Below, one piece after another: positions 28,037-29,598 of a stretch of 64,000 nucleotides of DNA (the first letter of the stretch is position 1; each line of letters begins with the position of its first letter). A model generated the notes under the pieces. The model did no database searches and was not told where the DNA came from. It worked only from the letters and a program-made list of their open reading frames with translations. The position numbers and the translations under genes were made by a program. Source of the DNA: Sedimenticola thiotaurini. GTDB lineage: Bacteria > Pseudomonadota > Gammaproteobacteria > Chromatiales > Chromatiaceae. The stretch covers positions 1,302,001-1,366,000 of the forward strand of contig NZ_CP011412.1 of NCBI RefSeq assembly GCF_001007875.1, in the 5' to 3' direction.

Positions 28037-28393
28037 ATGAACATTCTGCTCAAACGGGCCTATGACCCGGCCGATCCCGGGGATGGCTTCCGGATACTGG
28101 TGGACCGCCTATGGCCCCGGGGCCTTTCCCGGGAGAGTGCGAAGATTGACCTGTGGCTGAAGTCCATCGCTCCTTCCAATGAACTGAGAAAGTGGTATCA
28201 GCATGATCCTGAAAAGTGGCCCGAATTCCAGAAACGCTATTTCGCGGAACTGGACACCAACAGGGCAGCGGTCACGGAACTGATCAACCACCTCAAGCGG
28301 CAAAATGTGACGTTTCTGTTCGGCACCAAGGATCTGCAATACAATAATGCGGCCGCTTTAAAGACCTATGTGGAATCAAAACTGGCCCGTTAG
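28037..28393 (+). CDS. DUF488 family protein, YeaO-like
   Basis: A 118-residue protein of the compact YeaO-type DUF488 group. Family marks are ILLKRAYDPADPGDGFRILVDRLWPRGLSR (in parts), the WLKSIAPSNELRKWY block, and VTFLFGTKD. AAGG lies six bases before the ATG at 28037, which is preferred over an upstream in-frame ATG. The family is common but uncharacterised. It stands between the SMR gene and the sigma-54 promoter region. Confidence 0.88.
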   Translation: MNILLKRAYDPADPGDGFRILVDRLWPRGLSRESAKIDLWLKSIAPSNELRKWYQHDPEKWPEFQKRYFAELDTNRAAVTELINHLKRQNVTFLFGTKDLQYNNAAALKTYVESKLAR

Positions 28394-28720
28394 GGCATAC
28401 CAGCCGCTCAAACACCACATTTACAGATATCGCACCTTCGTTTGAGACATCGCCGCCGCCCTGATGCAGGGGCTAGCCCTCCGGGGTCTTCAGAGTCAAT
28501 GGTTATCAACCCAGCCGGCAAAACGTCAGAATTTTTTACACTCACCCCATTAAAAGAGTGGTATATGGTAAGACATCGCAAGTAACCCATTGAGTGTAAA
28601 TTAAATTCTTAATTTGGCATTTAATTTGCTTAATATGGCGTGAAATTTGGGTAAGGTTAAATTAACAGGCAAACTGAATTTCTAATTAAAATTTGGTACA
28701 CCTAAGAAGGGTTCTTCATA
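28394..28720 (+). promoter_or_regulatory. AT-rich regulatory region before the PEP-CTERM gene
   Basis: There is no gene in these 327 bp. The second half is strikingly AT-rich. It contains a perfect 10-bp inverted repeat, TTTACACTCA (28535-28544) and TGAGTGTAAA (28591-28600), followed by a sigma-54-type promoter at 28614-28630. The arms lie about 14-80 bp upstream of the -24 element, where an enhancer-binding protein could act. The leader to the ATG is about 80 nt, ending in AAGAAGGG as ribosome site. Confidence 0.65.
28614..28630 (+). promoter_or_regulatory. Sigma-54 (RpoN) promoter, -24/-12
   Basis: TTGGCAT-TTAAT-TTGCT fits the consensus TTGGCACG-N4-TTGCW. The invariant GG (28616-28617) and GC (28628-28629) have the required 10-bp separation. 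Only the two bases after TTGGCA differ from consensus. Transcription should start near 28641. Confidence 0.75.
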
Positions 28721-29548
28721 ATGAATAAAAACATCGCTTTCCTTTTGACGCTTGTAGCAGCTGGTATGACCCAGTCGGGTACGGTTTCGGCTGCAATCAG
28801 TTATGACCAGAACGTTACGCCTGATGTGATCTTTGGTTCCGGCGTCAGCAACGGCTCTTTCACCGTGGACCGCAACAACGGCATCGAACTGGGACTGCGT
28901 GGCAAGCTGCGCCACAACGCAGCCGGTAACCCGGAAAACACTTTTAACAGCAATGGTGATGGCACCTACAGCTTTGACGCAGGCGTCGCACCGGGCCAGT
29001 CCTCCCCCACCGCGGTCTGGAGCTTTGAGTGGTCAATCAATACTGACTTTGACGGTAGCACCGGTCTCAATGTCGGTGACCTGACCTACGCTCTGGGTCT
29101 GGACAACGATCCGTCGCAGGACACCAGCTTCACCGTTTTCGATCCCATTTTCGATCTTGGCGGTTTGACACCACCCGATCATTCATTCGGGAACAACAGC
29201 ACTGGTAATGGTGGCGGTGAAGAAACTTTGAGTTGGTTTTCCATATCGTTCTTCGGCACAATTGGCATAACCGGCTATAACGATCTGGTAGCAGACAACA
29301 ACGTGGCACAAAACTCCTGGAAGCCACACTGGTACTTCGCCTCTTTTGACCCCACGGTCGACGGCACTTACGACATCTACCTGGCCGCTTTCGATGACAG
29401 TGGCGCCCAGCAGGCGCGCACCGAGATACAGATCATTGTCGGTAACGGGGCTGCTGCTGATGTACCGGAACCCGCCACCCTCGCACTGATGTGTCTGGGT
29501 CTGGCCGGCGTCGGTTATGGACGGCAACGTAGCAGAAGAAACGCCTGA
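28721..29548 (+). CDS. PEP-CTERM sorted secreted protein
   Basis: The 275-residue protein has an N-terminal signal peptide cleaved near TVSA-AIS. Its C-terminus is a PEP-CTERM signal: VPEPATLALMCLGLAGVGYG then RQRSRR, that is, the Pro-Glu-Pro motif, a hydrophobic helix and a basic end. The middle is low in cysteine and rich in Asn/Gly/Asp, typical of surface or matrix proteins in this class, with no enzyme motif. An exosortase would process the tail; none is encoded in this window. It has a dedicated sigma-54 promoter and terminator, so it is a single-gene unit. Function unknown, possibly biofilm or exopolysaccharide matrix. Confidence 0.92.
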   Translation: MNKNIAFLLTLVAAGMTQSGTVSAAISYDQNVTPDVIFGSGVSNGSFTVDRNNGIELGLRGKLRHNAAGNPENTFNSNGDGTYSFDAGVAPGQSSPTAVWSFEWSINTDFDGSTGLNVGDLTYALGLDNDPSQDTSFTVFDPIFDLGGLTPPDHSFGNNSTGNGGGEETLSWFSISFFGTIGITGYNDLVADNNVAQNSWKPHWYFASFDPTVDGTYDIYLAAFDDSGAQQARTEIQIIVGNGAAADVPEPATLALMCLGLAGVGYGRQRSRRNA

Positions 29549-29571: not shown

Positions 29572-29598
29572 AACCCCGCTTCGGCGGGGTTTTTTTTA
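29572..29598 (+). terminator. Intrinsic terminator after the PEP-CTERM gene
   Basis: AACCCCGC-TTC-GGCGGGGTT followed by a T-run, 24 bp after the stop codon. A textbook tetraloop-like terminator. Confidence 0.93.

Follow-up and report, generated by a model that had tools for sequence, protein, structure and literature searches.

A predicted PrsR-dependent sigma-54 promoter with an IHF-like element upstream of a PEP-CTERM gene in Sedimenticola thiotaurini

The segment at 28524-28630 of the window, the 64,000-nucleotide stretch of Sedimenticola thiotaurini DNA analyzed here (positions 1302001-1366000 of a 3.96-Mb genome), very probably represents a sigma-54 promoter dependent on PrsR, of the type that Haft et al. 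reported in 2006; here an IHF-bent loop would serve a single PEP-CTERM gene. This reading is drawn from sequence comparisons within the genome, its family and its class. The same comparisons make it probable that PrsR promoters have three parts: the IHF site would start some 32 bp upstream of the -24 element, and the box would lie whole helical turns away, at 51, 63 or 74 nt and less often near 85 or 96 nt.

Inspection of the sequence confirmed all the letters and coordinates of the initial annotation, and its proposal of a sigma-54 promoter was supported. This promoter, TGGCATTTAATTTGCT, carries its -24/-12 elements at 28615-28630 on the forward strand, matches 10 of the 12 specified positions of TGGCACG-N4-TTGCW and displays a GG to GC offset of 12. 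The transcript start deduced from it is predicted at 28641 on the same strand, 12 nt past the C of the -12 GC, which would leave an 80-nt leader before the start codon. The intergenic region extends over 327 nt, from the end of the previous ORF at 28393 to the start of the gene at 28721. This gene (28721-29548, forward strand) encodes a PEP-CTERM surface protein of 275 aa and is followed at 29574-29597, on the same strand, by a terminator-like hairpin recognized by eye, CCCCGC-TTCG-GCGGGG then eight T. Upstream of the promoter, the predicted PrsR box CGTCAGAATTTTTTACA, corresponding to motif 1 of Haft et al., occupies 28524-28540 on the forward strand. It agrees with TGTCRNNWTTTTTTACA, a consensus derived from promoters of the host's own family, at 14 of 15 positions, and is the only match of at least 13/15 in the window with both strands scored. 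The spacer between the box and the -24 element measures 74 nt. A strict box-plus-promoter pattern returned six matches in the genome, against none for the reversed-pattern control, and the combination at 28524-28630 is beyond chance. Two further proposals of the initial annotation, an activator site upstream and control of the PEP-CTERM gene by a PrsK/PrsR system, are likewise supported.

To describe the box, 117 places were fetched, comprising 108 from other PrsR-bearing genomes of the family, six pattern matches from the host genome and three further host places that miss the pattern; this set omits two of the 116 matches in PrsR-bearing genomes and all matches from PrsR-less genomes. The left half of the box was present in 84 of them. 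The other 33 (TGTCR under 4/5) were used as controls, among which some (L202, L236) resemble genuine boxes that have gained or lost one T. Removal of two near-duplicates from the 84 left 82 non-redundant family promoters, whose box reads TGTC(A/G)-N-N-W-TTTTTTACA, a rough dyad of TGTCA and TTACA; for most of these promoters the letters TTTTTACA were set by the search pattern, which leaves the left half unconstrained. The four bases 3' of the box, CTCA here, are variable, with C in 31, T in 42, C in 31 and A in 27 of the 82.

Comparison of the regions upstream of PEP-CTERM genes in the host genome revealed a common longer word, GTC(A/G)NNWTTTTTTACA or a one-mismatch variant of it. A box with a sigma-54 site precedes six of the seven PF07589 matches in the genome (all five that exceed the cut-off and one of the two that fall short of it), the PEP-CTERM promoters having spacers of 42-74 nt, and also precedes three other genes. 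The remaining weak match (14 bits) has neither TTTTTTACA nor a sigma-54-like site within 1500 nt on each side. On its own and with two mismatches allowed, the box occurs at 79 places genome-wide and the reversed pattern at 68; the analysis was therefore restricted to the 12 places that deviate at no more than one position. A sigma-54 site was in range at nine of these 12, and at none of the boxes at 715683, 937533 and 2204070.

Several of these places lie before genes of other kinds. At genome positions 794977-795061, a box and a sigma-54 site, with a spacer of 53 nt and an 8/9 IHF-like match, are located upstream of a 145-aa ORF, with cobalamin genes on one side and, on the other, the EpsB-type glycosyltransferase that belongs to the prsK/prsR locus; the PrsR regulon may extend to the EPS locus itself. 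One-mismatch boxes with an in-phase sigma-54 site were found at 819026-819041, before a lytic-transglycosylase-like gene (IHF-like 8/9), and at 1003283-1003298, before the gene of a 198-aa protein with an SRRRFTKAG start (IHF-like 9/9), and PF07589 did not match either downstream gene. The one-mismatch box at 715683-715698 precedes a 228-aa protein whose C-terminus is like a PEP-CTERM variant, VPTPGTLLLLTLGLGVIGLRR; this variant was reported by neither Pfam nor NCBIfam, and a sigma-54 site is absent within range of the box.

The genome encodes a single PrsR above the cut-off, at 797670-798998 (TIGR02915, 719 bits, cut-off 502.6), with receiver, sigma-54 and Fis-type HTH domains. The adjoining prsK scores 799 bits with TIGR02916 (cut-off 300), and the neighbors of the pair include the EpsB-type glycosyltransferase and two relatives of the XrtA-associated ATPase (322.9 and 260.8 bits against a cut-off of 324.5 bits). 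The presence of rpoN is inferred from the many sigma-54 activators of the genome. About twenty NtrC-type regulators besides PrsR are encoded, any of which might in principle drive the promoter; that a sigma-54 regulator other than PrsR does so is nevertheless very improbable, given that the box is common to the PEP-CTERM set of the genome and that its presence tracks PrsR across the family. Box-promoter matches were found in 37 of 49 family genomes with PrsR, against 23 of 67 without it (116 genomes including the host's own; Fisher p 1.3e-5). Matches totaled 116 in PrsR-bearing genomes (reversed control 11) and 38 in PrsR-less ones (control 9), and because of these control counts some matches must be due to chance, more so in the PrsR-less genomes. 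The strict pattern had no match in 12 of the 49 PrsR-bearing genomes.

Analysis of the distance between box and promoter revealed a consistent periodicity. Spacers of the 84 boxes with a left half fall at 50-53, 61-66 and 71-74 nt, with one of 42, against a wider spread for the 33 controls. Off-phase spacers (54-60 or 67-71 nt, ranges set after the histogram had been inspected) account for one of the 84 and for 10 of the 33, and at period 11 the 84 give a resultant of 0.78 and the 33 one of 0.24. In relatives, spacers of at least 44 nt were searched, those above 74 nt in the family only. A search of 369 genomes of the class gave 75 matches in 41 genomes, six of them the host's, against one for the reversed-pattern control; beyond the family there are 69 matches in 40 genomes, with 2/69 off-phase and a resultant of 0.74. 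The longer family spacers (n = 16, from 17 rows minus one repeating the same box) measure 75-76 (8), 85 (2), 89 (1) and 94-97 nt (5). Pooling of 167 spacers left none at 54-60 or 77-84 nt and gave a best period of 11.25 nt (resultant 0.756), the optimum being broad (0.714 at 10.5, 0.724 at 12). The spacers thus form clusters near 51, 63 and 74 nt, and a few lie at about 85 and 96. These steps of about 11 bp presumably reflect a requirement for the box to face the correct side of the helix, and a short activator loop acting from a fixed helical face would give such a quantized spacing.

A third element was recognized inside the spacer. The IHF consensus is WATCARxxxxTTR (PMC7962754, PMC3897727), and TAACCCATTGAGT, on the forward strand at 28583-28595, agrees at eight of nine positions with YAANNNNYTGATW, the complement of WATCARNNNNTTR. 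It sits exactly at -32, starting 32 nt 5' of the -24 element, and its final TGAGT forms the first five bases of the right arm of the repeat discussed below. When the family spacers were aligned on the -24 element, A predominated at -31 and -30 (0.68 and 0.65), and T and G at -24 and -23 (0.65 and 0.44); these specific columns match the complement of the consensus. A match of at least 8/9 starting at -33 to -30 was present in 36 of the 82 family promoters, compared with a mean of 0.7 and a maximum of 4 in shuffled spacers. An initial analysis used another form of the consensus, YAANNNNTTGATW, and the counts given here use the printed one. The same register was observed in 12 of 28 class loci (30 minus the host's own locus and L289) and in 9 of 17 orthologues, shuffles giving 0.2 with a maximum of 2 and shuffles confined to the final 36 nt 0.3 with a maximum of 3 in each set; both sets test a register and off-phase ranges chosen from the family set, and both had previously been seen with YAANNNNTTGATW. 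Among the host's own promoters, seven of nine reach at least 8/9 in register and the remaining two have an 8/9 match elsewhere in the spacer. The combined rule of spacing and IHF position probably extends to several families within the class. The genome encodes both IHF subunits, ihfA (TIGR00987, 161.1 bits, cut-off 120.25) and ihfB (TIGR00988, 154.4 bits, cut-off 119.95), the latter at 779953-780225, about 17 kb from prsR.

This third element could also be a generic AT-rich bent stretch, or a site for another nucleoid protein that aids looping. Such a view draws on the broadly AT-rich columns -21 to -15 and -10 to -8 of the family spacers, on the 46 of 82 family promoters without an 8/9 match at -33 to -30, which leaves fewer than half in register, and on a second cluster in the opposite orientation. 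This cluster, at -22 to -17, reaches at least 8/9 in 13 of 82 family promoters (shuffles 1.1), 5 of 28 class loci (0.3) and 1 of 17 orthologues (0.2); when scored with YAANNNNTTGATW, the class set showed it at almost the strength of the main register (mean 4.71 against 4.82), and this minus-strand cluster is perhaps an alternative site. Against this view, the AA at -31/-30 and the TG at -24/-23 are specific columns that coincide with the IHF consensus in register, and shuffling of the final 36 nt alone, which keeps the AT content, yielded a mean of 1.3 and at most 6 matches against the 36 observed. Six control patterns, each taken at its best offset, reached 8/9 at 0, 0, 0, 1, 1 and 6 sites, compared with 22 sites for the consensus at -32; the pattern with six (also at -32) retains the YAA half. 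We therefore regard an element other than an IHF site as unlikely. As for the exact position, that of IHF at 28583-28595 is likely, not sure, because an equally good 8/9 match occurs at -16 on the other strand of this very spacer.

The initial annotation had placed the regulator on a distant 10-bp inverted repeat and had suggested its half-site as the binding word. The left arm TTTACACTCA (28535-28544, forward strand) and the right arm TGAGTGTAAA (28591-28600, forward strand) are indeed perfect inverse copies with 46 nt between them. The left arm consists of the final six bases of the box followed by the four variable bases, so that only TTTACA is shared with the box, and the right arm overlaps the IHF-like site. 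When the 126-nt region was shuffled 3000 times with dinucleotides preserved, 1.1% of the shuffles contained a perfect inverted repeat of at least 10, and an inverse copy of the decamer in its own spacer had a frequency of 0.0004 in 20000 shuffles, both values having been computed after the pair was seen; as a pair, the repeat is not clearly beyond chance. Genome-wide, TTTACACTCA occurs exactly five times, two of which form the pair at 28535/28591. For the other three, the same strand carries no inverse copy in the 250 nt downstream. Sigma-54-like matches in these stretches are at best none, 6/12 and 9/12; the last has a spacer of 57 nt, which is off-phase, and its box lacks the left half. When one mismatch was allowed, TTTACACTCA was found at 50 places in forward and 46 in reverse orientation, compared with 34 and 23, respectively, for the reversed pattern, and was discarded as a genome-wide word: the excess is mild and the places listed include the ends of true boxes, such as that at 937310. 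The conserved word is the 17-nt TGTCRNNWTTTTTTACA instead, the CTCA portion of the proposed half-site being variable in the 82 family promoters. The initial annotation had named a lack of enrichment before other PEP-CTERM genes as its refutation. This lack was observed for the paired arms; TTTACA does recur there, as the end of the box.

If the two TTTACACTCA arms formed a true split operator, two regulator dimers, of PrsR or another protein, would bind them and loop or cooperate. The perfection of the arms, the five exact decamers of the genome with two of them here, and the rarity of an inverse copy in shuffles of the spacer speak for this arrangement, as do the statement of Haft et al. (PMC1569441), in its accessible text, that motif 1 is sometimes repeated, and one promoter of the genome that has a second, one-mismatch box farther upstream (937533). 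The pair, however, does not recur in family, class or orthologue spacers, and a split operator made of the two decamers was rejected. TGTAAA is present in one of the 82 family spacers, that of the promoter with the arm at 28591, against 3.8 expected, and in none of the 28 class spacers. Best inverse matches to each promoter's own box-end decamer stay near shuffle levels in the family set, with 10/10 once (here), no 9/10, six of 8/10 (4.8 expected) and 29 of 7/10 (22 expected), so that a 9/10 or 10/10 inverse copy is absent from all the other spacers of the 82-promoter set. In the 17 orthologue spacers the best inverse match was 9/10 once, 8/10 once and at most 7 in the others. The right arm was also rejected as a second, reversed box, since its best minus-strand score is 10/15 and the GTC half is missing. 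We consider a split operator very improbable; the inverted repeat is a coincidence between the box end and an unrelated stretch overlapping the IHF-like site.

The product of the gene at 28721-29548 matches PF07589 with 29.1 bits (cut-off 20.7) and TIGR02595 with 23.3 bits (cut-off 16). Its nearest named family is the floc-associated PepA, NF033554, and this identity was not retained: because its score of 36.3 bits is below the cut-off of 80, the product is not a PepA equivalog by this test. No full-length relative was found at E 1e-5 in 73 related genomes (eight of the same genus, several incomplete), two of which gave short matches only. Relatives elsewhere, in Alteromonadales, Planctomycetota and others, comprise 32 loci, 38-73% identical over the best segment, and the gene has probably spread between lineages. 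A box with a sigma-54 site was detected at 17 of these 32 loci, all 17 titled proteobacterial, with spacers of 50, 50, 51, 51, 51, 61, 61, 61, 62, 63, 63, 63, 63, 63, 64, 75 and 97 nt. The 15 loci without this combination include planctomycetal, myxococcal and other records, with one gammaproteobacterial locus (L097) and one with just 38 nt upstream (L092). The regulatory cassette thus appears to accompany the proteobacterial copies of a gene that seems to travel.

With the box, the promoter, the spacing rule, the IHF-like register and the prsK, prsR, ihfA and ihfB genes in hand, we infer the phosphorylation, binding, bending and activation steps as follows. PrsK would activate PrsR, an NtrC-type response regulator, by phosphorylation, and PrsR would bind the 17-bp box at 28524-28540. 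A bending protein, IHF or one like it, would bind at about 28583-28595 and bend the DNA between box and promoter, the resulting loop delivering PrsR to the sigma-54 RNA polymerase at 28615-28630. ATP hydrolysis by PrsR would then open the promoter, and transcription of the PEP-CTERM gene would begin near 28641. PrsK/PrsR is considered a regulator of surface proteins linked to exopolysaccharide and flocs, for which direct mechanistic evidence is thin. The spacing rule and the IHF-like register provide the two-motif prediction with clear and cheap tests, and a tempting split operator is explained away. If the three-part architecture is true, members of the PrsR regulon could be predicted from phase, among them EPS and cell-wall genes that lack PEP-CTERM.

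Regarding known systems, the closest is that of Haft et al. (PMC1569441), whose accessible text describes a 17-nt motif 1 ending in TTTACA, predicted as the PrsR site, a spacer of mean 62.8 nt (32-92) and then the sigma-54 motif, at a mean distance of 71 (S.D. 38.5) from the start codon. The 28524-28630 promoter likewise has a TTTACA-ending 17-nt motif, a 74-nt spacer and -24/-12 elements, with 90 nt to the start codon, a long intergenic region, and prsK and prsR in the genome. No feature distinguishes it from that system, and an IHF-like element and quantized spacing are absent from the same accessible text. A regulator that Haft et al. predicted for PEP-CTERM, DVUA0057 of Desulfovibrio, enriched its five predicted targets in DAP-chip according to the portion available of PMC3333781, where the motif is not validated. 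For Aquincola tertiaricarbonis RN12, the available text of PMC9850573 reports that pepA transcription requires RpoN1, with the start mapped and an enhancer predicted upstream; more experiments are called for in this 2023 paper. The present locus resembles RN12 pepA as a PEP-CTERM gene with a sigma-54 promoter and PepA as its best NCBIfam match (36.3 bits), and is unlike it in that the 28721 product scores below the PepA cut-off of 80. As in the IHF-assisted sigma-54 promoters presented in the accessible parts of PMC3897727 (the orp operons of Desulfovibrio vulgaris) and PMC7962754, an IHF-like site lies between the activator site and the -24/-12 elements, and the predicted site here matches at 8 of 9 positions. 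Full-text searches of open-licence papers, judged by title and the start of the abstract, yielded no report of an IHF register or quantized spacing for PEP-CTERM promoters. The promoter belongs to the described PrsR/sigma-54 kind, to which the IHF register and the helical phasing, not found in print, are refinements.
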